Of a stretch of DNA of 10,106 bases, positions 1 to 10,106 are shown piece after piece. Each line of letters opens with the position of its first letter. Within the stretch, counting starts at the first letter, position 1. Origin of the DNA: Patescibacteria group bacterium UBA4067. GTDB taxonomy: Bacteria > Patescibacteriota > Minisyncoccia > Minisyncoccales > Minisyncoccaceae. The position numbers and the translations under genes were made by a program. Below the pieces are notes generated by a model. The model was not told the DNA's origin and searched no databases. It saw only the letters and a program-made list of their open reading frames with translations. The DNA lies in contig DFZB01000016.1 of the NCBI GenBank assembly GCA_002382025.1, positions 1 to 10,106 on the forward strand, read 5' to 3'.

Positions 1-425
1 ATATTTGTTCCATCATTTAATGTAAGAAGGATTCCTCCTTCAGAACATTCACTTAAATTAGGATTCTCGGTATTAACGATTCCTGGATTAATTGAGTTTA
101 ATATTAAAAAAACCGAAAGCAATATAATCATTCCCATAAATCCATTAATAGCCATTTCTCTTGCTTTTGATATTCTTCCTGGGTCTCCTCCTGACATAAT
201 AAAATTAACTCCTGACCATATCAATATCACTAAAAGAATCACTGCTCCCATAGCAATAATCATCATAAAAGCATAAGAAACATAATCAGTAAGAGTCGAA
301 CTTTCATTTATACTATAAGTTCCAAAGGGTGTTTTTATCTCTGGATAATTATTTTCCACCGCATAAGCTGATTGAAAAGACAATAGCAATAAAAATATTA
401 ATAAAATGTATTTGTATTTTTTCAT
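1..425 (-). CDS. VirB2-like T4SS pilin protein, 3' end cut by window edge
   Basis: I translated this frame by hand from an ATG at 425; it stays open to the left edge, giving 141 codons, so its C-terminus is missing. The N-terminus (MKKYKYILLIFLLLLSFQSAYA-type) is a Lys-rich start plus a hydrophobic core, a probable signal peptide of about 22 residues. Two further hydrophobic helices follow at about residues 50-75 and 93-117, separated by a short polar loop with SGGDPGRISKAREMA, and then NSINPGIV. Signal peptide, two helices, a GGDP/KA-type loop and an INP end are typical of the CPR T4SS pilin family (VirB2/TrbC-like), which should sit in the inner membrane or be built into a surface filament. 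The next gene upstream has the same N-terminal plan, so the two look like tandem paralogs. A Cys appears just after INP, so this protein may also carry a Cys-containing extracellular tail. It starts 11 bases after the stop at 437, with no clear Shine-Dalgarno site. The family call is fairly safe; the total length is unknown. Confidence 0.5.
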   Translation of the reverse strand, partial: MKKYKYILLIFLLLLSFQSAYAVENNYPEIKTPFGTYSINESSTLTDYVSYAFMMIIAMGAVILLVILIWSGVNFIMSGGDPGRISKAREMAINGFMGMIILLSVFLILNSINPGIVNTENPNLSECSEGGILLTLNDGTN

Positions 426-436
426 GATTTTTTATT

Positions 437-3400
437 TTATTCTTGCTTTTGAAGACAATAATAATCATTTACTAAGCTATAAATAGCATTAGTACAAGTA
501 GGATGTTGTTTATTATTCAAACACGCTTCTCTTTGTCCTGAAGTTAAATAATTCATATTATTATATGGTTGACAATTCCACATTATATCAGAAGGAGGAT
601 AGGGGAAAACAGGAAGAATTGTTGCTGATCCAGAAGATAATGTGTCTAACCCTTCTTCACAGCTTAAAAGAGCAAAACCTTTTGTTCCTTGTTTTAATGG
701 AAGACCATAACCAGTAACACATTGATCAAGTTTTTTTCTTGAATAATTAAGCGTATCAAGGATTGTCCACCTATTAGGGTCTTTTTCTTTAAGATTTTCT
801 CCTTTTCCATAACTATCAATTCTTCTTGCTAATAACTCTATTTTTTGTAAATGGCCCAATCCTATTTTAGCATTTGCTGTGGTGGTGCAATAAGAAGTAT
901 CTCTACAATCAAGACCAGAATCATGATCTTCTGGATAATTATAGTTTTCGGCAGCAGAACTATAATTAAATATTCTACACTGCTTGTCCTTTAAATCATC
1001 ATAAGGACAGACATAATAATCTTTTTTTATATTTTTTCCTCTTTCTGAAGAACAATCAATTGACCCACTTGCTCCTATTTTTGTAATGTTTACCTTGCCA
1101 CCAAATTCAAAAACCCCTATAAATCCTGTGGGCAAAGTAAGTCTACCGCAATATATTGTTCCAAAACGAGTTGTTTGCGTTACAAATTTAGCTGACGAAT
1201 AAAAATGACCATGAGATCCTCTAAAAAGACAGTATAGTCTCTGACAATATTCATTTCCACCATAAAATGCATCTTCTCCTTCTATCCATTCTATTTTTAT
1301 TCCCAATCCTTTTACATGATTTTCAATAATCTGCCTATCTTCTTCTGTTATTAAGCCAACATCTTCTCCTTCGCAAAAAGTTTTTTCAACTGTCCATGCT
1401 GGTAAAAAAGTAATAATACTTCCTTTTTCACTTTCTCGGCATGTTCCCAGTTTAACTAACGATCCATAAAAACCATCTACATAGTCTACTCTTTTTAATT
1501 TCGTTCCTCTGCCAGTACCAGGTTCATGAGGATAATAATATTTTTCTTCGGCTCCAGGACAAAGACAATTGCTTTCAAATTCATGATTTAAATAATAATC
1601 CATATAATAATCAGTTGATCCTTTTTTACTTCCGTCTGTGGAAGTAAAAGTACATTTTTTCTTAGGACCAGAAGCCCAATCTGTTATAAAATACCAAGGA
1701 TCTATACTTGTTACATAGGTGAAGCCCAAATAAATAGAAGAATCCTCTGCACAACTATAAAAATTTTTATCTACAATGTTTACTATCTCACACTCTTCAC
1801 AACAAATACATTGTTTTTCTTTGCTTGAATCACAAACAGAACAATCATCACAATAATTATCAGTAGGACACATTCCTACCTTATCGCAACTCTTTTCTCC
1901 TCCACTAGTTGGATAATTATTACACCTTAAACAATCACATTGTTCAGGTAAATCAGCAAATTCTTGTGCTTTTTCTTTTACGCTTTCAATTTCTTTTTTT
2001 ATCGTACCTGTAAATTCTAATAATTTATTGGCAAATAATTTTGCATCATTAACCAATTCTCCTAATGGTATTTCTGATACCATGTATCCTTTTTTGTCTT
2101 TGTCAGTAATCATTCTTAATGTTTCTTTACTATATGATTCTTCGTATTTAAATCCTTGCCTATAATAAAAAGTAGCTCCATCTCCAGCATAAGAATAGCT
2201 TTCTTTATTTGTTTCAACATTACAAATTCTTTTTTCTTTTAACTCTTCGTAGCTTTCTTTTTCTGAGTTATAGACATTACAATTCCCATTTTCTGCTACA
2301 CAAGGATCATTTTTTAACTCTTCTGCGTAAAGAAAGGAAGTTAATTCAGCTCTTTTTCCAGAAAAACAATTATTGTTATTAATGACAGTACAATTAAAAT
2401 CTCGACAAAATCTTACTGGATCATAAGTATAAACATATTTTCCATGACTTCCAACAAATGATTTTTCTACTATTTTCTTTCCTTGATTGTCTTTGTTTTG
2501 AAGAGAATGAAATTCAGCCATAGAAATTCTTTCTCCATAAGGATCTCTCATTTTAATTATAGCTCTGTCTAAATCTTCTAAATGGTTTTTGTAATATTCT
2601 TCAAAGGTCTCCATTCTTTTTATGGCTAAATTTAAAGTAAGAAACTTTTCTTTGTCTGTGTTTGGATCTTCCCAAAAAGCAGTAAATGGACACATGTCTG
2701 CTTTTGCTCCAGGAGGTAGGTCTTTATAACTTTCTCCGTCAACTCTAATCTTTATTTCATTTCTATCGCAATCAATTTGATCTCGCACATCTTTTACACA
2801 AGGATCATGATCGTTTGTTGTATTTAAAAAACTACTAATTTGACATCCAAAGTTTGGTTTGTAATAAGCACTACCACAACAAAAACAATTACTATCGCAA
2901 ATATTAACATCTACGTATTGACAATTTCCATCTGGATCACAAGTCTCGCAAGAATCTTTTTTAGTCTGACAAGCATAAGAAATTGATTGATCAAGATAAG
3001 ACCAGCTAGCACACCTACTACACCTACAATTATTTTCTCCGCTATCATCAATACTTTTTATTGAGTCCAATATTCTTCTCATTGGACCATCAGTAAGTTT
3101 TCCTTTACAAAGATAGTCTGCATTAAATGCTTTTACTTTTTTAATAATTGCTTGATTTAATTCTTCTATACAATAAAACATATCAACTCCTCTTAATGTA
3201 TCATCTTCTGTTATTTTCCCGTCTCCATTTCTATCTATTGTGTCTCCATTTTCATCATAAGAATAACAAAGCTCTTCTGTTACATCTTTTTTCTCTGGAT
3301 CTAATCTTTTAGAAGAGTTAGCAGCTAATATAGTTTCGACTATTGTTCCCAAAGGAATTTCTTCAAACTCTAATACATTAGGATTTGTATTTTTGTTATC

Positions 3401-3766
3401 TCTATTAAAAACCTCTGCAACATATTCTAATGGACGAATATTCATTATTACTAAATCAGGATTAATAGTTGAAGCAATAACATAAACTCCTAAAAGAATA
3501 ATCAAACCAACAAATACTGCCTGAATTCTTTCTTTGGCTATTATTATTTTAGCCATTTCTCCCTGAGCAATAATCATATTAATTCCATGATACATAATAA
3601 CGAAAACAGCTATTATCACTCCTGCGCTAATAGCTATTTTTACAAAATATACAAAAAGATCATTAGTTTGTCCCGAAACAAGTCCATCGTATTGATTTTC
3701 CAATGCAAAGGAAAGAATAGGAATAATTAAGATTAAAAAGATTACAATGATTAAAAGTTTTTTCAT
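437..3766 (-). CDS. Giant cysteine-rich secreted protein with VirB2-like pilin N-terminus
   Basis: 1109 residues. Residues 1-22 are a signal peptide or first helix. Helices follow at about 37-60 and 77-100, with the polar loop AQGEMAKIIIAKER between them and INPDLV after, matching the pilin-like plan of the downstream gene. From about 105 on there is no further membrane helix: roughly 1000 residues that should lie outside the membrane. By hand count it has 56 Cys, all after residue 166, grouped in two dense clusters (247-308 and 610-672) that share CxCxxC at the start and CxCC near the end. Each cluster is preceded by EIPLG (136-140, 565-569), suggesting an old internal duplication. DRNGDGKITEDD at 178-189 fits a 12-residue EF-hand/dockerin calcium loop. 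It has no sortase motif or C-terminal anchor. From family context I infer a T4SS-associated surface or adhesive protein, disulfide-bonded outside the cell. The ATG at 3766 lies 8 bases after the upstream stop, and no Shine-Dalgarno site is visible. The pilin-like head is well supported; the tail's function is unknown. Confidence 0.5.
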   Translation of the reverse strand: MKKLLIIVIFLILIIPILSFALENQYDGLVSGQTNDLFVYFVKIAISAGVIIAVFVIMYHGINMIIAQGEMAKIIIAKERIQAVFVGLIILLGVYVIASTINPDLVIMNIRPLEYVAEVFNRDNKNTNPNVLEFEEIPLGTIVETILAANSSKRLDPEKKDVTEELCYSYDENGDTIDRNGDGKITEDDTLRGVDMFYCIEELNQAIIKKVKAFNADYLCKGKLTDGPMRRILDSIKSIDDSGENNCRCSRCASWSYLDQSISYACQTKKDSCETCDPDGNCQYVDVNICDSNCFCCGSAYYKPNFGCQISSFLNTTNDHDPCVKDVRDQIDCDRNEIKIRVDGESYKDLPPGAKADMCPFTAFWEDPNTDKEKFLTLNLAIKRMETFEEYYKNHLEDLDRAIIKMRDPYGERISMAEFHSLQNKDNQGKKIVEKSFVGSHGKYVYTYDPVRFCRDFNCTVINNNNCFSGKRAELTSFLYAEELKNDPCVAENGNCNVYNSEKESYEELKEKRICNVETNKESYSYAGDGATFYYRQGFKYEESYSKETLRMITDKDKKGYMVSEIPLGELVNDAKLFANKLLEFTGTIKKEIESVKEKAQEFADLPEQCDCLRCNNYPTSGGEKSCDKVGMCPTDNYCDDCSVCDSSKEKQCICCEECEIVNIVDKNFYSCAEDSSIYLGFTYVTSIDPWYFITDWASGPKKKCTFTSTDGSKKGSTDYYMDYYLNHEFESNCLCPGAEEKYYYPHEPGTGRGTKLKRVDYVDGFYGSLVKLGTCRESEKGSIITFLPAWTVEKTFCEGEDVGLITEEDRQIIENHVKGLGIKIEWIEGEDAFYGGNEYCQRLYCLFRGSHGHFYSSAKFVTQTTRFGTIYCGRLTLPTGFIGVFEFGGKVNITKIGASGSIDCSSERGKNIKKDYYVCPYDDLKDKQCRIFNYSSAAENYNYPEDHDSGLDCRDTSYCTTTANAKIGLGHLQKIELLARRIDSYGKGENLKEKDPNRWTILDTLNYSRKKLDQCVTGYGLPLKQGTKGFALLSCEEGLDTLSSGSATILPVFPYPPSDIMWNCQPYNNMNYLTSGQREACLNNKQHPTCTNAIYSLVNDYYCLQKQE

Positions 3767-3774
3767 ATAATGCT

Positions 3775-4161
3775 TTATTTTTTCTTTGGTTCTTTATTTT
3801 CTTTTTTAGAAACTTCTTTTCCTTGAGGTTTTTCTTCTCCTTCTTCTTCTGGAATATTGGCATCTTTCAATGTAAGATAAGACATTATTGTCCAAAAAGG
3901 AAGAGCTCCTAAATAGGGAATAGACTCTAATATGGCTGATCCAAAAAATCTAAAACTTTTCTTTTTTAATTTTTTTGAGCTCATTCTAATTCTTGTTCCT
4001 TCTCTAAACCATATCCATGAACCTAAAAAAATAGTTCCAATAAAATCTGTAACACCAACATCATCTAAACCAAAACAAATAAGAATTATACCTATTGCGT
4101 CTAACATCAGGGCAAAGGGAAAAAATATTATTAGTTCTGGGCTCATTCTTAAACCTAACAT
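3775..4161 (-). CDS. Small three-helix membrane protein, first gene of the pilin operon
   Basis: 128 residues from the ATG at 4161. About three hydrophobic segments are visible: one after MSPELIIFFPFALMLD, one around VTDFIGTIFLGSWIWF, and one around SIPYLGALPFWTIMSYLTL. A highly charged Glu/Lys tail ending in PKKK follows and is probably cytoplasmic. I recognise no catalytic motif. Similar small membrane proteins next to pilin-like and T4SS genes are familiar from CPR genomes, but I know no assigned function; a role in pilin insertion or assembly is only inferred from position. Start choice: the frame stays open upstream to a TTG at 4230, but a strong minus-strand promoter has its -10 box at 4201-4196, so transcripts should begin near 4189 and exclude that start. 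ATGs at 4161 and 4146 are both possible. The one at 4146 has an AGG seven bases upstream and would give 123 residues. It heads the minus operon, and its stop is 8 bases before the giant cysteine-rich gene. Confidence 0.5.
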   Translation of the reverse strand: MLGLRMSPELIIFFPFALMLDAIGIILICFGLDDVGVTDFIGTIFLGSWIWFREGTRIRMSSKKLKKKSFRFFGSAILESIPYLGALPFWTIMSYLTLKDANIPEEEGEEKPQGKEVSKKENKEPKKK

Positions 4162-4166
4162 TTTTA

Positions 4167-4194
4167 TTGCTTTTAAAATAATGTATGATATAAT
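4167..4194 (+). promoter_or_regulatory. Possible promoter of the plus-strand TrbL-like operon
   Basis: TTGCTT (4167-4172), a 16-base spacer and TATAAT (4189-4194) lie upstream of the ATG at 4234, with a predicted start near 4201. The -35 match is weak. An alternative is the TAAAAT at 4221-4226, which would give an almost leaderless transcript but has no good -35 box. The -10 box here lies one base from the -10 box of the opposing promoter, so the two promoters overlap. Confidence 0.5.
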
Positions 4195-4195
4195 T

Positions 4196-4224
4196 ATTAT
4201 AGTATTTTTTAAGAATATTGTAAA
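4196..4224 (-). promoter_or_regulatory. Sigma-70-type promoter of the minus-strand pilin operon
   Basis: Read on the minus strand, TTTACA (4224-4219) and TATAAT (4201-4196) are separated by exactly 17 bases: one mismatch to the -35 consensus and a perfect -10. The predicted transcript start is near 4189, giving leaders of about 28 or 43 bases to the ATGs at 4161 and 4146. AT-rich DNA yields -10 boxes by chance, but a near-consensus pair at ideal spacing upstream of an operon is stronger evidence. Confidence 0.5.
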
Positions 4225-4233
4225 ATACAAAAA

Positions 4234-6246
4234 ATGAAAAAAAACAACGCACCATTATTCGCTTTTATTTTTATTGGATTATTGTTCTTACCATTAATAA
4301 CAAATGCGGGCTTTCTTCAAGATCCTGTTGGGTCAATATTGGGTGCTTTGGGTTTAAGTGATATAGCAGATGGTTTCGCTAAAGCTTTATCTGTTTTTCT
4401 TGTTCAATTACTTGCAGGTATTGTTACCACTATTCCTAATGCAGCTCTTCAACTTTTAAATTGGGTAGCTAGTCCTAATTTTCTTCAGATTAGCATGACT
4501 GGTCCCGACAATGAACTTGTTACTGAAGGATGGAACATAACAAGAAATTTAGCTAATATTGCTTTAATATTTGGACTAATTTTTATTGCTATAAATATTA
4601 TTCTTGGAAGCCAAGAAGTTCAAGCAAAAAAATCTTTAGTTAATTTTGTTCTTATTGCTATTTTAATTAATTTTACTCCTGTTATTTGTGGTGTTATTAT
4701 CGATGCCTCAAATGCATTAACCTCATATTTTCTTACGGGTGGAATAAATGGAAATCTGGTTAATTTTTTAGCAGAAGAAATAAATACAAATAAAAACATT
4801 GATTTTTTTGCACTTATTGTTTTTTTCTTTTTTGGAATATTTTCTGCTGTAATTTATTTACTTTATGCTCTTCTTTTCGCAGCTAGATATATTATATTAT
4901 GGATTTTAATTATCGTATCTCCTCTTGCTTTTGCATCAAAGGTTTTTCCCAAATCAAAATATATAACCAAAGTTTTCCCAAATCTTCTTTATTGGGATGA
5001 ATGGTGGGATCAATTTATTCAATGGAATGTAATTGGAATTCCTGCTGGATTCTTTATTTATCTTTCTAATGTTGCAATGGTTAAATTAACTGCAGGTGGA
5101 ATTTTTGCTGATTCAGGTGGAATATCAGTTTTTGGTGCATTATTTACTTATGTCATGCCATTTCTATTTATGGCAATTGGATTCTTTGTCACCATGTCAT
5201 CAGGAGGACCAGTAAGATCGAAAATAAGTGGACTAGGCAAACAAGCTTGGGGAAAAGCTGTTGGAGCTGGAAAAACTGCTGCTGCTGCTGGAGCTGGATA
5301 TGCTATAGGAAGAGCAAAAGCAGGTGGCACATATATCAAAGAAGGAGCCGTAGGAGGAATTGCTGGTGCAGCATATAATAAAGGAAAAAAAGATGATGAA
5401 AAAATTGACTGGCACTCAAGAGAAGGAAGAGACGAAGCAAGACAAAAATACAAAGAATATAAACAAGGAGTTAAAGAAAAAGCAGCCAAGTATGGTGTTA
5501 TTTCTCATGAAACTGCTAATGAGAAAAATAAAGCAGAGAAACAAGCAGAAGAATTTGCTAAAAAAATGGATCTTGATTATTTCAACAAGCATTATAATGA
5601 CGCAACAATGACATCAGAACAAAGAAAAGCTGGGGACATTAGATTTATGAAAGAAGATACTTCAGCCTATCTTAAAGGTGCTGGAGACAATAAACAAGAA
5701 TATCAAAGAAGATTAAAAGTTATTAATACCTACGGAGATGACTCGAAAGGACACAGAAAAATTAAAACAAAAGCTTTGATGGATGCTAGCTTTAAAAACA
5801 AAAATTTAGCCGGAGATACAAACTGGGGACAACTCTATGGTAATATAGATATAAATGAAGAGATACCAAAGATGTCTGCTCAAGAAGTATTAGAAAGTTC
5901 CTCTGCAGAATTTTTACAAAACGAAGATAATCTAGCAAAATTAAGTGCTGGACAAATAAATCACATATTAAATCGTGGATCAAAACCTCAGGTTGCTGCA
6001 ATAGAAAGCGTGGAAAAACGATATAAAAGAAATGATGAAAACTATAAAAGGTTAGACCTAGAAACTAAAGAAATAAAAAAAGCTCTTAAAGACGCAAAAG
6101 AAATGAAAAAAAATTCCGAGAAACTTGGAGGGTCTGGAGAAGCAGGGTATAGAGACTCTAAAAGAATAGAAGAATACGATGCTCAAATAAAAAATTATGA
6201 AGCCGAAATAGAAAAGAGAACAAATCTTGTTCGTATTTTCAGCTAA
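4234..6246 (+). CDS. TrbL/VirB6-like T4SS inner-membrane channel protein
   Basis: 670 residues. A signal-like hydrophobic segment at 7-23 is followed by an amphipathic stretch at about 51-75 and membrane helices at about 103-125, 134-156, 190-212, 213-235, 258-283 and 298-322. A Gly/Ala-rich linker (about 333-382) and a long, highly charged, helical and probably coiled-coil tail (about 383-670) follow. A polytopic N-terminal half with a Gly/Ala hinge and hydrophilic tail is the usual plan of TrbL/VirB6 proteins, which form part of the inner-membrane translocation platform. The segment around LLYWDEWWDQFIQWNVIGIP (251-270), between helices, resembles the conserved loop I associate with CPR members. 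It starts at the first ATG, with no Shine-Dalgarno site upstream. It is transcribed away from the pilin operon, and a small gene follows 20 bases after its stop. The family call rests on topology, context and general resemblance, not on a catalytic motif. The tail's role is unknown; it may contact the VirB4 ATPase or the substrate. Confidence 0.5.
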   Translation: MKKNNAPLFAFIFIGLLFLPLITNAGFLQDPVGSILGALGLSDIADGFAKALSVFLVQLLAGIVTTIPNAALQLLNWVASPNFLQISMTGPDNELVTEGWNITRNLANIALIFGLIFIAINIILGSQEVQAKKSLVNFVLIAILINFTPVICGVIIDASNALTSYFLTGGINGNLVNFLAEEINTNKNIDFFALIVFFFFGIFSAVIYLLYALLFAARYIILWILIIVSPLAFASKVFPKSKYITKVFPNLLYWDEWWDQFIQWNVIGIPAGFFIYLSNVAMVKLTAGGIFADSGGISVFGALFTYVMPFLFMAIGFFVTMSSGGPVRSKISGLGKQAWGKAVGAGKTAAAAGAGYAIGRAKAGGTYIKEGAVGGIAGAAYNKGKKDDEKIDWHSREGRDEARQKYKEYKQGVKEKAAKYGVISHETANEKNKAEKQAEEFAKKMDLDYFNKHYNDATMTSEQRKAGDIRFMKEDTSAYLKGAGDNKQEYQRRLKVINTYGDDSKGHRKIKTKALMDASFKNKNLAGDTNWGQLYGNIDINEEIPKMSAQEVLESSSAEFLQNEDNLAKLSAGQINHILNRGSKPQVAAIESVEKRYKRNDENYKRLDLETKEIKKALKDAKEMKKNSEKLGGSGEAGYRDSKRIEEYDAQIKNYEAEIEKRTNLVRIFS

Positions 6247-6254
6247 TAATAATT

Positions 6255-6260
6255 TATAAT
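6255..6260 (+). promoter_or_regulatory. Isolated TATAAT just before a start codon
   Basis: A perfect -10 hexamer ends six bases before the ATG at 6267, which would place a transcript start at about the start codon (leaderless). The only -35-like hexamer (TTGTTC, 6227-6232) is 22 bases away, too far for a normal promoter. It may be chance in AT-rich DNA. Confidence 0.5.
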
Positions 6261-6266
6261 TCACAT

Positions 6267-6674
6267 ATGCAAATTTTAGACTTAAAAATATTAGATTTCA
6301 TTGAAGAGATTGCAGAAAAATATAACCTAGATAAAGAAATAGAAAATGATCCACTAATTCAAAAAAATCTTTCTGAGGCAAAAAACATTGGGGAAAAACA
6401 ATTCATTAAAATTGTTTACTCTAAAAATACTTTTCCATCTTTAATTTTAAAAGATATTATAAGGGATTATTTAAATAAAAATTTAACATCTTCTCAACTA
6501 ATAAAAGAAATTAAAGAAAAATTACCAGCAGAAGAAAGTATTGCCACACAAATTTTTCAAGATATAATGAACAACTCTTTGATAGGCGAAGATTTAAAAG
6601 GATCTATAGAAAAAAACATTTCTTCTGCTGAAGGAAAAACAACTAAAAAAGGTTTGAGCCAAGAATTAGAATAA
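6267..6674 (+). CDS. Small acidic helical protein of unknown function
   Basis: 135 residues with no signal peptide, membrane helix or Cys, so probably cytoplasmic. I do not recognise a named family. The sequence is almost entirely predicted-helical, with Leu/Ile spaced 3-4 apart and many Lys/Glu, ending in a flexible Lys/Ser/Glu tail. Residues 68-100 align without gaps to residues 58-90 of the small protein encoded at 8082-8537: six identities in 33, and most hydrophobic positions conserved. The two may therefore be distant paralogs, but the match is too weak to prove it. It lies 20 bases after the TrbL-like stop on the same strand and is probably co-transcribed. Its own stop is four bases before a terminator hairpin. 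No Shine-Dalgarno site precedes the ATG; a TATAAT lies seven bases upstream. By position it is likely an accessory T4SS component; that is inference only. Confidence 0.5.
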   Translation: MQILDLKILDFIEEIAEKYNLDKEIENDPLIQKNLSEAKNIGEKQFIKIVYSKNTFPSLILKDIIRDYLNKNLTSSQLIKEIKEKLPAEESIATQIFQDIMNNSLIGEDLKGSIEKNISSAEGKTTKKGLSQELE

Positions 6675-6701
6675 AAAAGGGCATTGATATTAATCAAGCC
6701 C
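6673..6701 (-). terminator. Rho-independent terminator between convergent genes
   Basis: The stem pairs 6679-6682 plus 6684-6688 with 6693-6701: nine base pairs with one bulged A (6683) and the four-base loop ATTA. On the minus strand it is followed by TTTTTTATT (from 6678 leftward), a proper U-tract for ending the SPFH transcript. The SPFH stop codon (6692-6690) sits in the loop, so the stem also encodes the last residues of that protein. On the plus strand the hairpin starts four bases after the stop at 6674, but only a weak T-run follows, so termination that way is less certain. Confidence 0.5.
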
Positions 6702-7946
6702 TAAATCTTTAAGATTTTGCCTTACTCTTTCTTCCTTAGAAGAAGATTTCTGAGAAGAACCAGAAGATACTTGTTGTACTGCTCTTTGACCAAGTATTTG
6801 CATGGCCGCTATTAATTCTAATAACGTTGAACTTCCTGATCCTCCTGAAGTTCTAATGTCGGCAAACTGTTTTCCCTCTATGGCCATTTGTCGATGGACC
6901 ATGTCTTCAGCTGCTTTCCAATAGACTCCGTATTTTTGTTCGAATTCGTTTGGATTTTCTCTGATTTTGTTTTGAATTTCCTCTTCAGTGAGACCAATAT
7001 TTTTGCTTAATATTTGCATTATTGGTCCCGCAACCTCCATTGCTCGCTTATAGCTTTTAGCCCGAGCCTCTACTTCAATTGCCTGCTTTTCAAATTCAGC
7101 AACGGCCTTTCTGGTAGACGCTTCAGTATATCTCTTGTCTGATGGTTCAATTTGAACCACCTTCATCTTTACTACTTGGACTCCGAAATCGTCCTTAATT
7201 TTATCGATTATTGGACGCATTTCTGTCTCAAAATAGTCTCCAAGGGCAACGCTTCCAGAAAGATTAATCCATTCAAGATAGTTTCTCTTTCTGATTTGGT
7301 CCCTAACCCCACCTTGAATAAGATTTGCGCTACTGCCATACCAATTTTGGATTTTAAATATCGCCTTGACCGGGTTGACAATTTTCATTTCAACAGCCAA
7401 ACCAATATTAATTGGCATAACACTAATGTCTTCGGCAGACAAAACCCCAATATAATAGAAATAGGACTTTACGAGCACACTTCTAAGAACTTCTTCTTTG
7501 AATACGCTCTTTCCTTGTTCTGTATATTTTGTCCATTTCTGCCTGTAGACATGTCTCCGCTGAAACGGCCAGAGAAAAAGACACATTCCCTTAATTTCTC
7601 TTTGCTTCAATGTTGCATTGTTTTCTTCAACAATGTTCCATTCTTCGTCAAGACCGAAATATTTCAGCTTAAGGAAAAGCTTTTTAAATCCCATTCCCTC
7701 AACAATAATGGTGGCAAACCCTTCTTCTGGAAAGGTACCAAACACATCGTTTGGCGCCCAGATAAAATAGAGAACAACGAATGCAATGATTGGAACAATA
7801 ATTATTCCAATTATTCCTCCGACAATACCAGTAAATACTGCTAAAACAATAGCAATAATCACAGAGATTGCAACGATTACAAAGCCTTTTAAGAAAGCTT
7901 TTTTCTCCGCTACAAACTTCTCATCCATCTCTTTAACAGATGACAT
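6690..7946 (-). CDS. SPFH/Band 7 (stomatin/flotillin-like) membrane protein
   Basis: 418 residues from the ATG at 7946. Two adjacent hydrophobic segments at about 20-63, with GG in the middle, form a membrane anchor or hairpin. An SPFH/Band 7 domain spans about 72-270, with NPVKAIFKIQNW, a basic RDQIRKR stretch, and FGVQVVKMKVVQIEPSDKR at its end, as in stomatins and prohibitins. A charged Ala/Glu-rich helix follows (AVAEFEKQAIEVEARA, about 281-296), the usual oligomerising coiled coil. A Gly/Ser-rich C-terminal region with a hydrophobic helix (LLELIAAMQILG) comes last. Such proteins form large membrane rings that organise lipid domains and partner enzymes; the partner here is unknown. A TTG start at 7973 is possible, but the ATG at 7946 has AAGGAG eight bases upstream and is preferred. 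Hand-counted 60-base rows give 38-48% GC (7021, 7141, 7201, 7681), against 15-25% in sampled flanking rows. With its own promoter and terminator it is a self-contained unit, unlike its neighbours. Confidence 0.5.
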   Translation of the reverse strand: MSSVKEMDEKFVAEKKAFLKGFVIVAISVIIAIVLAVFTGIVGGIIGIIIVPIIAFVVLYFIWAPNDVFGTFPEEGFATIIVEGMGFKKLFLKLKYFGLDEEWNIVEENNATLKQREIKGMCLFLWPFQRRHVYRQKWTKYTEQGKSVFKEEVLRSVLVKSYFYYIGVLSAEDISVMPINIGLAVEMKIVNPVKAIFKIQNWYGSSANLIQGGVRDQIRKRNYLEWINLSGSVALGDYFETEMRPIIDKIKDDFGVQVVKMKVVQIEPSDKRYTEASTRKAVAEFEKQAIEVEARAKSYKRAMEVAGPIMQILSKNIGLTEEEIQNKIRENPNEFEQKYGVYWKAAEDMVHRQMAIEGKQFADIRTSGGSGSSTLLELIAAMQILGQRAVQQVSSGSSQKSSSKEERVRQNLKDLGLD

Positions 7947-7954
7947 TTTTTCTT

Positions 7955-7960
7955 CTCCTT
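7955..7960 (-). promoter_or_regulatory. Strong ribosome binding site that sets the SPFH start
   Basis: On the minus strand AAGGAG ends eight bases before the ATG at 7946. It is the only clear Shine-Dalgarno site I see in the window, and it favours this ATG over the TTG at 7973. Confidence 0.5.
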
Positions 7961-7982
7961 TTTTGGTTTTCAAATTACAATA

Positions 7983-7996
7983 ATCCCATTAGGGAT
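7983..7996. repeat. Short inverted repeat at the SPFH transcript start
   Basis: ATCCC-ATTA-GGGAT is a perfect 5-base inverted repeat with a 4-base loop. It begins at about the predicted first base of the SPFH transcript (near 7996). It could be a repressor operator or a 5' hairpin that stabilises the mRNA; a chance repeat cannot be excluded. Confidence 0.5.
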
Positions 7997-8002
7997 ACTT
8001 TA

Positions 8003-8031
8003 ATTATAAAAGATTTTGTCTTTTTTGTCAA
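8003..8031 (-). promoter_or_regulatory. Perfect-consensus sigma-70 promoter of the SPFH gene
   Basis: On the minus strand TTGACA (8031-8026), a 17-base spacer and TATAAT (8008-8003) match the bacterial housekeeping consensus at all 12 positions with ideal spacing. The predicted start near 7996 gives a leader of about 50 bases carrying the hairpin and the AAGGAG site. Confidence 0.5.
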
Positions 8032-8039
8032 TGTCGCTC

Positions 8040-8069
8040 TTGATAAACTACTCTCTTCTGTGATAAAAT
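8040..8069 (+). promoter_or_regulatory. Probable promoter of the PrgI-VirB4 operon
   Basis: TTGATA (8040-8045, five of six consensus), an 18-base spacer and TAAAAT (8064-8069) preceded by TGA, an extended -10 (TGN), lie upstream of the ATG at 8082. The predicted start near 8076 would leave a leader of only about six bases. It diverges from the SPFH promoter, with the two -35 boxes about nine bases apart. Confidence 0.5.
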
Positions 8070-8081
8070 ATAAATATTAAT

Positions 8082-8537
8082 ATGGAAGAAAAACCAACAA
8101 AAGAATTCTTTTGGAAAACATATGAAAAGCTTCCTGAAGATTTAAAAGAAGCTATCTTCTCCGAAAGCAATAATGAAGCAGTCAAAACAATTTGTTCTCG
8201 TTTTGACTTATCAGAAGACCAAACTTCTTTAATTGCAAAATATACAGGAAGAGTTTTAATGGGTCTTCTTCCTTTGAAAGAGTTGCCCATTACATTAGAA
8301 TTAGAATTAAATATTGATGAAAAAGTTGTTGAAGATATTATTAAAGAATTAACCTATGCTATTTTTAAACATTTGCGAGTTTCTTTGAATAAAATATATA
8401 GTGATAATTATTTTGATAATATTCCAATAGAAGAAGATACAAAAATTAAAAAAAGTGCTATAATAAACAAGGAACAAAAACCAAAAGAAGAACCAACCAA
8501 ATACGAAGAATATGATCCTTATAGGGAAACATTATAA
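8082..8537 (+). CDS. Small helical protein preceding prgI, function unknown
   Basis: 151 residues, with no signal peptide or membrane helix, so probably cytoplasmic. A compact helical core spans about 6-107, with AVKTICSRFDLSEDQ and GRVLMGLLPLKELP followed by an amphipathic region (DEKVVEDIIKELTYAIFKHL). A charged, Lys/Glu/Pro-rich, probably disordered tail follows from about 110 to the end. I recall similar small helical proteins beside PrgI in CPR genomes, but I know of no assigned function. The core resembles part of the small protein at 6267-6674. It is the first gene of the second plus-strand operon: its stop is two bases before the PrgI start, which argues for coupled translation and a role in the same complex. 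There is no Shine-Dalgarno site, and the probable promoter leaves almost no leader. The gene is well supported; the function is not. Confidence 0.5.
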   Translation: MEEKPTKEFFWKTYEKLPEDLKEAIFSESNNEAVKTICSRFDLSEDQTSLIAKYTGRVLMGLLPLKELPITLELELNIDEKVVEDIIKELTYAIFKHLRVSLNKIYSDNYFDNIPIEEDTKIKKSAIINKEQKPKEEPTKYEEYDPYRETL

Positions 8538-8539
8538 TC

Positions 8540-8947
8540 ATGCCATTTCAAGTACCACAATTCATAGACCATGATCCTAAAATTCTAGGACCATTCACTT
8601 TAAAACAAAGCCTTTATATCGGTATCGCGTTAGGAATTTCTTTTTTTCTTTATTTTTCTTTAGCTCAAACAAACTTCTTTTTATACGTTCTTGTTTGTGG
8701 TCTTGTTTTCGGAGCAGCCATTGCTCTAGCATTTATTAAAATTGAAGGATTAGCAATTCCATTAGTTATTAAAAATTTCATTAATTTTAACTTAAACACA
8801 AAAATGTACAGATGGGAAAGAAAAGAAACTCCTGTTTTTCTACCAACTAAAAAATCGAATAAAATAGAAGTTAAAGAAGAAAAAACAAAATTAAAAATTA
8901 AAAAAGGTGGAAGGATTGATCAATTAAATAAAAAAATATATTATTAA
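8540..8947 (+). CDS. PrgI family protein (VirB3-like T4SS membrane component)
   Basis: 135 residues. It begins FQVPQFID, then KILGPFTLKQ (14-23), the N-terminal signature of the PrgI family. Two membrane helices follow at about 25-42 and 47-66, then a polar region with YRW (90-92) and a Lys-rich tail. PrgI proteins are small inner-membrane subunits of Gram-positive and CPR-type T4SSs, encoded directly before VirB4/TraC ATPases and regarded as VirB3 counterparts. That is the order here: the next gene encodes the VirB4 N-terminal domain and the two overlap by one base (TAATG). AGGG lies about 13 bases before the ATG, too far to be a convincing ribosome binding site, so translation probably couples to the upstream gene. 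This call is firm. Confidence 0.5.
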   Translation: MPFQVPQFIDHDPKILGPFTLKQSLYIGIALGISFFLYFSLAQTNFFLYVLVCGLVFGAAIALAFIKIEGLAIPLVIKNFINFNLNTKMYRWERKETPVFLPTKKSNKIEVKEEKTKLKIKKGGRIDQLNKKIYY

Positions 8948-9588
8948 TGTCTATAACATCTCAACAATTTATTCCCGTAGAACAAATAAGAGAAGGGGTG
9001 ATGATAATGAAAGATAGATCATTGAAGGGGATCTTAATGATTTCTTCTATTAATTTTGCTTTGAAGTCTGAAGAAGAACAAAGTGCTATTATTTTTAATT
9101 TTCAAAACTTTCTTAATTCTTTGGATTTTTCTTGCCAAATAATTGTCAATTCAAGAAAAGTAAATATTACTGGCTATATCGATAAAATTAGGAATTTAGA
9201 AAATGAACAAAAAAATGAACTTCTTAAAATTCAAACTGCTGATTACAGAAAATTCATCGAAGAAATCATAGCAGAAGATTCTATTATGAGTAAAAACTTT
9301 TATGTAGTTGTTCCTTATTATCCTTTATTAGAATTGTCTAATAGCCCTCAAACAAAAAAACAATCTGCTGCTAATGTTACAGCTAGCTTAACTGAACAAA
9401 ATTTTCAAACAGGAAAATATCAATTATGGCAAAGAATGGAATACATATCATTAGGATTAAAACGTTGTGGTCTAAAATCAGTCACCTTAAACACAGAAGA
9501 TATTGTTGAGCTTTTGTGGAGCTTACATCACCCAAAACAAGCAGAAATGGGTTATTATCCTGATTTGCCACCTGAATTAATAAAATAA
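8947..9588 (+). CDS. TraC-like protein: stand-alone VirB4 N-terminal domain
   Basis: 213 residues. The sequence resembles the extreme N-terminal part of VirB4/TraC ATPases. It opens with QFIPVEQIREGVMIMKD and GILMISSINF, then a stretch ending FLNSLDF (55-61), CQIIVNSRKV, a helical YRKFIEEIIAEDS segment, NFYVVVPYY, and LLWSLHHP (189-196) near the end. It has no Walker A or B motif and is far too short to be an ATPase. The gene directly after encodes a protein that starts where this domain would normally continue, so the two together rebuild the classic VirB4 N-terminal region. Separate TraC-like and VirB4 genes are a known arrangement in CPR and some Gram-positive systems. It should act at the cytoplasmic face of the membrane with PrgI and VirB4. 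The ATG overlaps the PrgI stop by one base; there is no Shine-Dalgarno site. Confidence 0.5.
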   Translation: MSITSQQFIPVEQIREGVMIMKDRSLKGILMISSINFALKSEEEQSAIIFNFQNFLNSLDFSCQIIVNSRKVNITGYIDKIRNLENEQKNELLKIQTADYRKFIEEIIAEDSIMSKNFYVVVPYYPLLELSNSPQTKKQSAANVTASLTEQNFQTGKYQLWQRMEYISLGLKRCGLKSVTLNTEDIVELLWSLHHPKQAEMGYYPDLPPELIK

Positions 9589-9591
9589 AAT

Positions 9592-10106
9592 ATGAATTTA
9601 TTTAAACAACAAAAAAAACAAAAACTATTTGAACAAGAAACCACTGGTATAAAAGATATTATTGCTCCTTCAGTAATAGAGGTTAATCAGAACTATGTAA
9701 ATTTAGAAGAAAAAATAGCTAAAACATATTTTGTTTTTTCTTATCCTCGTTATTTATCCATGGGCTGGTTAGCACCAATTATTAACATGGATATTGCTTT
9801 TGACTTGTCTTTCTTTTTTCATCCAATTGAAACAGGAACAATATTAAGGCAGCTAAGAAAAAGCGTAACTGAAGTACAATCAGAAATAATTGAAAGGCAA
9901 GAAAAAGGCTTGATCAGAGAGCCTGCATTAGAAGTTGCCTATCAAGATCTAGAAGATCTTCGTGACAAACTTCAAACAGCTCAAGAAAAAATGTTTAAAT
10001 TTGGATTATATATTACTGTTTATGCTGACACTAAAAAAGAATTAGAAATAATTGAAACAAAAATTAGATCTGTTCTTGAATCAAGATTAATATATATTAA
10101 ACCAGC
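9592..10106 (+). CDS. virB4: VirB4-type T4SS ATPase, N-terminal part only (cut by window edge)
   Basis: I translated this by hand from the ATG at 9592; it stays open to the right edge, with 171 full codons. After a Lys/Gln-rich start it has KDIIAPSVIEV, YPRYLSMGWLAPI, a DLSFFFHPIE strand, a long charged helix containing VAYQDLEDLRDKLQ, and MFKFGLYITVYADTKKELE, all typical of the VirB4/TraC domain that precedes the HerA/FtsK-like ATPase core. Walker A and B motifs lie beyond the window, so ATPase activity is inferred from the family only. VirB4 powers pilus assembly and substrate transfer at the inner membrane. The gene starts three bases after the TraC-like stop, and the same operon supplies PrgI. 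No Shine-Dalgarno site is present. The family call is confident; the full length and any C-terminal domains are unknown. Confidence 0.5.
   Translation, partial: MNLFKQQKKQKLFEQETTGIKDIIAPSVIEVNQNYVNLEEKIAKTYFVFSYPRYLSMGWLAPIINMDIAFDLSFFFHPIETGTILRQLRKSVTEVQSEIIERQEKGLIREPALEVAYQDLEDLRDKLQTAQEKMFKFGLYITVYADTKKELEIIETKIRSVLESRLIYIKP

Follow-up and report, generated by a model that had tools for sequence, protein, structure and literature searches.

A giant pilin-headed, cysteine-rich protein beside type IV secretion genes in a member of the Minisyncoccaceae

The window analysed here is a stretch of 10,106 nucleotides (positions 1–10106 of contig G000:C10, GenBank DFZB01000016.1) from Patescibacteria group bacterium UBA4067, a member of the Minisyncoccaceae whose genome is G000 in the survey described below. 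Its minus strand carries an open reading frame for a protein of 1109 amino acids (aa), referred to below as the giant, which begins with a pilin-like head, contains 56 cysteines and lies beside genes of a type IV secretion system (T4SS). The locus raises the question of what a protein of this size, built on a pilin head, would do next to a secretion system. The answer that we favour, with confidence somewhat better than even, is that the T4SS pilin fold has been reused to anchor contact proteins that are exported and stabilised by disulfides, and that the long pilin-headed set forms the outward-facing contact part of the T4SS.

The pilin head and the cysteine-rich tail

The frame of the giant is conserved, since it is matched by 19 database proteins at E≤1e-3: P0001 (a near-copy with four residue differences), another 17 long homologues, not all of them complete, and P0019, whose match is confined to 11% of the query. 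The closest named relative, P0004 from Ca. Microsyncoccus archaeolyticus, is 52% identical over 100% of the giant. Giants were aligned in A1 (18 members) and paralogues in A2 (24 members); counts for cysteine columns and for the EF-hand-like loop were taken from 27 giants. A phage origin was rejected for the giant and for its paralogue P0025, as a PHROG search at E≤0.01 gave no match for either.

The head of the giant consists of a signal peptide (judged by eye) and a pair of hydrophobic helices with a short basic loop between them; in a low-confidence AlphaFold2 model the helices span residues 37–66 and 71–101. The T4SS_pilin profile PF18895 matched 12 of the 18 members of A1 (best E 6.3e-8) and all 24 members of A2 (best E 2e-9) at E≤1. 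The pilin-like head claimed in the original prediction is thus recovered in orthologues, while the sequence in the window itself stays below the cut-off of the profile. Across the phylum, PF18895 was detected in 279 of 286 sampled genomes, with no match in seven. The mean net charge of the head loop was +1.6 in giants (8 sequences, 7 of them net positive) and +2.3 in paralogues (23 sequences, 21 net positive), with both flanks negative; these values come from the 31 of 72 rows that the script placed, all eight short pilins being among the 41 unplaced rows. Such a pattern would mark a cytoplasmic loop with both termini outside. VirB2 pilins measure about 100–200 aa as whole proteins; the giant exceeds this size and is therefore grouped with pilin-headed surface proteins and kept apart from the VirB2 pilins.

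The predicted composition of the tail was borne out by a recount of the open reading frame and by hydropathy analysis: residues 1–112 are free of cysteine, the first being residue 167, and no C-terminal anchor was seen, with no 19-residue window above 1.3 (Kyte–Doolittle) beginning past residue 92. At the background rate of 0.74% (204 non-pilin genes in the fetched loci), 7.4 cysteines would be expected in the 999 residues of the tail (binomial P ~1e-30). Cysteine is also the best conserved residue, with a mean column identity of 0.93 (next proline, 0.76), and 38 of 49 well-covered cysteine columns are at least 90% conserved. The coordinates of the recognised parts are given in Table 1. The two cysteine-rich modules are not claimed as an internal duplication, as merely 17–21 columns align. 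As to a possible EF-hand calcium site, EF-hand_5 matched half of A1 (9/18 at E≤1, best 0.0029) and the giant itself at E 0.16, below the cut-off. The structure prediction proposed for the tail was run on the full-length protein and gave no confident fold (mean predicted local distance difference test score 55.8); the giant alignment, used as a profile against PDB sequences, returned a single match at E 0.41, which was of no use.

In four genomes (G100, G101 and G102 of family f22, and G040 of family f3), the giant is split into two adjacent genes. The separate C-part (305–359 aa, 17–22 cysteines) has no pilin head and begins with a hydrophobic segment of its own, and so provides independent evidence for export of the C-terminal module. 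From this, the signal peptide and the basic loop between the helices, we infer that the tail of the giant is exported. Another exported-looking protein, of 913 aa with 31 cysteines, is encoded in G005 (L051:11400-14141(-)); its pilin-like hydrophobic helices are C-terminal, not N-terminal (by eye).

Disulfides in the exported tail are likely. Co-occurrence of cysteines in the alignment gave several perfect pairs, with too many ties among related rows for individual bonds to be named. The genome was searched for disulfide-forming enzymes, as had been proposed with the original prediction, with a divided outcome. In G000, a thioredoxin-fold protein with a CPHC motif and an N-terminal anchor (L064:14-751(-), G000:C61; PF00085 at 1e-5, over the cut-off) is a candidate enzyme for making disulfides outside the cytoplasm; 10 of 21 family genomes have PF00085 matches in frames of 229–407 aa, three of which were inspected. 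Against this, VKOR was found in 0/21 and DsbD_TM over its cut-off in 0/21 family genomes, and Thioredoxin_4 in 1/21, DsbB and DSBA profiles having been outside the search.

These absences would suit a different role, in which the conserved cysteines bind zinc or iron under anaerobic conditions and the tail is metal-stabilised or metal-scavenging. The CxC, CxxC and CC motifs of the tail and the anaerobic growth of the named relative Minisyncoccus (PMC12281837) point the same way. The anchored CPHC protein in the same genome and the distribution of cysteines over the entire tail speak against metal binding, however, and we consider it distinctly improbable.

Gene neighbourhood and linkage to the secretion system

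VirB4 and PrgI, the criterion used here for an MPF-FATA-like T4SS of Patescibacteria, both lie in the neighbourhood of the giant (Table 1).

Table 1. Features recognised in the window (positions refer to the window).
Feature	Position	Strand	Remarks
Giant pilin-headed, 56-cysteine protein	437..3766	-	ATG start, 1109 aa
Signal peptide of the giant, residues 1-21 (..LSFA|LEN)	3704..3766	-	cleavage site judged by eye; ALEN/AVEN recurs
T4SS_pilin-like head, two hydrophobic helices and basic loop	3467..3670	-	PF18895, residues 33-100, below cut-off
EF-hand-like loop DRNGDGKITEDD, residues 178-189	3200..3235	-	strict pattern in 9/27 giants
First cysteine-rich module, residues 241-360	2687..3046	-	C247, C252, C273, C290, C294, C296, C297 and C323 invariant in 18 sequences
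Second cysteine-rich module, residues 601-700	1667..1966	-	C610, C612, C627, C633, C653 and C656 invariant in 18 sequences
C-terminal module, residues 901-1109	440..1066	-	separate exported-looking protein in G100, G101, G102, G040
Pilin-headed paralogue with predicted crystallin tail, N-terminal 141 aa	3..425	-	truncated at the contig end; P0025 shows the whole protein, 471 aa
Small membrane protein, just upstream of the giant	3775..4230	-	position conserved in many relatives; no family match
Polytopic membrane protein, VirB6-like by position and layout alone	4234..6246	+	no informative profile match
PrgI (VirB3-like)	8540..8947	+	PF12666 1.8e-6
VirB4 N-terminal part (TrsD-like)	8947..9588	+	NF045975 5.7e-10, NF041427 TrsD 7.8e-6, both below curated cut-offs
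VirB4 ATPase part, start	9592..10104	+	NF045971 2.8e-19, partial frame, below whole-protein cut-off

The window was mapped together with 20 stretches of the family, drawn from 15 genomes with G000 among them, and with 10 stretches from elsewhere (eight from the same order, two from other classes); stretches were picked by matches to the giant or to the head, not by T4SS genes. The gene order in the family is broadly PrgI, VirB4 N-terminal part and VirB4, the VirB6-like gene, the small membrane protein, the giant and then the pilin-headed paralogues; in families f22 and f43 the giant follows more directly after VirB4 and the small membrane protein. A survey for pilin heads with cysteine-rich tails beside PrgI and VirB4, as suggested with the original prediction, showed that the arrangement recurs: five families of the order have a cysteine-rich giant with pilin-headed, mostly crystallin-tailed paralogues, as a rule next to VirB4 or PrgI (in f43 the tail of the giant was recognised in parts). 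VirB4 or PrgI occurs on the stretch of 15 of the 21 headed giants mapped, four have the VirB6-like gene alone and two lie at contig ends. By family, VirB4 or PrgI was found in f1, f22 and f43, and just the VirB6-like gene or a contig end in f3 and f17. The original prediction would have suffered from homologues with tails unlinked to T4SS genes and predicted to be cytoplasmic; most proved to be linked, and neither of the outcomes named as counting against that prediction was observed.

The linkage bears on an alternative in which the head is a mere two-helix membrane anchor, the proteins form a cysteine- and crystallin-rich surface coat or a scaffold of extracellular polymeric substances without a physical tie to the T4SS, and the genes are neighbours because they are expressed together near the replication origin. 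T4SS loci do often lie near dnaA (PMC12102498), a position that could link genes for expression alone. The linkage to VirB4 and PrgI persists, however, while the flanking housekeeping genes change (ksgA on the paralogue side in f1; Jag/YidC in f22, in G033 of f3 and in f43), and we regard such a coat as unlikely.

A recognisable giant extending beyond the head was found in 14 of the 21 family genomes; four matched through the head alone and three gave no match. All seven of these carry PF18895 genes. Throughout the order, the giant profile matched 209 of 247 genomes, mostly through the head among the matches listed. In one head-only genome (G012), a contig-cut frame of 581 aa with 31 cysteines (L052:5792-7537(-)) stands at the place of the giant beside a pilin-headed paralogue; neither Pfam (at E≤1) nor the giant profile matched it. 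Given its position, some absences of the giant may reflect divergence.

Alternatively, the giant might be a structural part of the channel that stands in for missing or unrecognised VirB8/VirB5-type parts and bridges the cell wall, not a host-binding protein. One giant is present per array, at a conserved place by the small membrane protein and the VirB6-like or VirB4 genes, and VirB8 is rarely detectable in Patescibacteria (PMC12102498). Such a role nevertheless appears improbable, as the tail varies in sequence and in length (760 to 1310 aa among giants, the middle being variable) and as the seven family genomes without a recognisable giant do have PF18895 genes.

Three further observations were made on the T4SS cluster and its relatives. 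In G000:C10, two overlapping frames of 356 and 154 aa (L050:646-2177(+)) encode the VirB4 ATPase part, which is a single frame of ~593 aa in relatives; the split reflects either a frameshift or an assembly error. The cluster of the window also contains a gene for an SPFH/Band_7 protein (6690-7973(-)), which runs against the direction of VirB4 and has relatives in 10 further stretches of those mapped. A LysM and M23 peptidase gene (L037:5195-6232(+)), the product of which is a possible VirB1 substitute, lies near a pilin-headed array and ksgA and has relatives in 12 other mapped stretches.

Crystallin-tailed paralogues, short pilins and other tails

The open reading frame at 3–425 was rejected as a small pilin: it is identical at 141/141 residues to the start of P0025, a long-tailed protein with a pilin head like that of the giant. 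This second long-tailed protein and the short pilins at other loci had both been missed in the earlier view of the locus. The tail of P0025 is predicted to form three tandem beta/gamma-crystallin domains, and all 41 PDB fold matches at E≤0.001 were crystallins. It is predicted to be crystallin-like by its two-Greek-key fold, not a Pfam crystallin; three relatives match Pfam crystallin models at E 0.0055–0.016, below the cut-offs. In contrast to microbial beta/gamma-crystallins (spherulin 3a, protein S, the Clostridium beijerinckii domain), the three tandem domains are carried on a pilin head and sequence matches stay below Pfam cut-offs. The crystallin calcium motif, [N/D][N/D]xx[S/T]S, occurs at least once in 21 of the 24 A2 sequences (32 copies against 2.5 in shuffled sequences, the rows being related and two of them nearly identical) and is present in 8 of 32 family paralogues. 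A profile of the crystallin tail matched 30 of the 32 family paralogues of 300–500 aa, some of which are included in the A2 alignment from which it was built. At distant loci of the order it matched 10 of 13, the misses being one cut frame of 118 aa and two paralogues in G196. Arrays of the family hold two to four paralogues (315–484 aa overall) where the giant is present and the contig is long enough.

PF18895 gave 123 matches in the 21 family genomes, 81 in frames of 100–229 aa and 42 in frames of 282–1315 aa; at least two of the 81 short frames are contig-cut long ones (the 143-aa frame of the window and one on G017:C44). Short pilin genes of G000, four in number, lie on two other contigs (C26 and C34). 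In a head tree of 72 rows, calculated from few columns, eight short pilins (these four and one each from G010, G016, G017 and G020) split from 64 long-tailed heads with support of 100/99. Long-tailed heads may thus no longer polymerise, as the surface coat considered above would have it. Within single genomes of f22, f3 and f17, the heads of giant and paralogue are 53–67% identical (6 of 10 distant comparisons), and their tails align over 8–98 columns. Homogenisation of heads would fit their co-assembly; recent duplication with tail exchange is the alternative.

The same head is joined to other tails elsewhere. In other classes, L063 (G398; 3077 aa, 1631-10864(-)) combines T4SS_pilin (2.4e-11) with TIG, Big_5, Laminin_G_3 (1e-10) and VWA (4.2e-7), and L062 (G496; 3351 aa, 29-10084(-)) combines T4SS_pilin (1.9e-11) with TIG, Big_5 and DUF4215. 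These mega-proteins, both with Ig-like/TIG domains and the former with lectin-like and VWA domains as well, contain 107 and 148 cysteines, respectively, and each lies beside one pilin-headed partner of 751 or 642 aa. In P0019 a pilin head (T4SS_pilin 6.7e-7) is fused to an M23 peptidase domain (1.6e-11). A frame of 4681 aa in G419 also contains a pilin match somewhere along its length.

In a broader version, Patescibacteria would have made the T4SS pilin fold a general display module, with a conserved two-helix head that co-assembles with the T4SS and interchangeable extracellular tails (disulfide-rich, triple beta/gamma-crystallin, lectin/VWA, Ig-like or peptidoglycan hydrolase), and the resulting decorated filament or surface port would recognise and grip the host, here probably an archaeon. 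We put this broader version forward tentatively, as a possibility short of even odds.

A contact role beside ordinary pilins

In the narrower reading favoured here, that of pilin-anchored contact proteins, the T4SS of this Paceibacteria/Minisyncoccia lineage, as placed by its named relatives, would have ordinary short VirB2-like pilins and a second set of long pilin-headed proteins. Each of the latter would be exported by Sec, and its two-helix head would be inserted as a hairpin, either in the membrane or in the filament or base of the T4SS. The heads would associate with the T4SS (base or filament), and the tails would project outward at the contact site. One member would carry a disulfide-rich tail of ~1000 residues, the others mostly crystallin-type tails, with three tandem domains in the one modelled. 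The tails would most likely bind the host surface before or during transport. Host contact is plausible because the named relatives Ca. Microsyncoccus and Minisyncoccus are described as parasites of Methanospirillum, Minisyncoccus being attached at the end plugs (PMC10936435, PMC12281837); Ca. Microsyncoccus archaeolyticus is described as growing on Methanospirillum (PMC10936435). The original prediction of a giant pilin-like subunit or adhesin is strengthened by the head in orthologues, the linkage to the T4SS and the export-like C-part, while for a place at the tip or base of the filament, for disulfides and for host contact it can still be taken only as a proposal.

Several results weigh against this reading, in addition to the seven family genomes without a recognisable giant and the scarcity of known disulfide-forming enzymes. 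PF18895 scored the giant at 15.9 bits (cut-off 26.6, E 0.014; E 1.7e-4 in a one-genome search, still below the cut-off) and full-length P0025 just under it at 26.0 bits. Heads of giant and paralogue are 33–39% identical in f43 (4 comparisons) and 25–44% in the family of the window (13 comparisons), so homogenised heads are not general. Foldseek found no counterpart of the giant at E≤0.001, a result that does not make its fold a new one, and the crystallin assignment rests on a predicted fold, with Pfam crystallin models matching 0 of 24 A2 sequences at E≤1. Even cysteine counts, found in 20 of 24 giants (three partial giants left out) and 27 of 31 paralogues, lend weak support; controls are mostly even too (15/20), so such counts are suggestive at most and were dropped as proof of disulfides. 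For the mega-proteins L062 and L063, the stretches that were fetched contain no gene recognised as part of a T4SS, which speaks against a tie to the T4SS for every pilin-headed protein and would suit a surface coat.

Known systems resemble the locus in part. VirB2-like pilin arrays of 2–11 tandem genes, often near VirB4, were described in Patescibacteria with PF18895 among the profiles used (PMC12102498), and one such array is essential in Southlakia epibionticum (PMC10633639). Pilin-type heads, tandem genes, frequent proximity to VirB4 and a host-dependent phylum are shared with the present locus. In PMC12102498, however, the arrays are treated as small pilins, whereas here another 200 to 1200 residues follow the head, and the short pilins are encoded at separate loci; since PF18895 was used, those arrays may include genes of the pilin-headed long kind. 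In Ca. Microsyncoccus, the T4SS pilins PMX.50_00571, PMX.50_00607 and PMX.50_00608 rank with the signal-peptide genes of highest expression (PMC10936435), and gene clusters with pilin signal peptides and pilBCDMT were reported for family UBA5633 (PMC9763046); the former may be members of the array described here, and the latter may overlap with it. PrgB-type adhesins of Gram-positive conjugation systems, which provide surface contact for monoderm T4SS (PMC12857230), are alike as proposed cell-contact proteins; they are anchored via a C-terminal LPxTG, whereas the giant would be anchored via its N-terminal pilin head. No PrgB-like adhesin was detected in the Patescibacteria set of PMC12102498. 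Long-tailed T4SS pilins, crystallin domains or cysteine-rich giants are not described in the literature searched, which comprised listed titles, the openings of abstracts and parts of open articles, with subscription papers and preprints outside it. The VirB2-like arrays of Patescibacteria are thus known, and long cysteine-rich or crystallin tails on their pilin heads are apparently undescribed there.

These proteins bear on two open questions, namely the means by which such ultrasmall parasites recognise and grip a host and the function of their T4SS; the role of the T4SS in Saccharibacteria was called completely unknown in a 2024 article (PMC11665869). Pilin heads with defined extracellular domains provide concrete proteins for tests of localisation, expression and host binding, and they suggest an adhesin anchor that would need neither sortase nor wall-binding repeats. 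The large cysteine-rich or crystallin-like tails may be the host-touching parts of an ultrasmall bacterium related to parasites of methane-making archaea.

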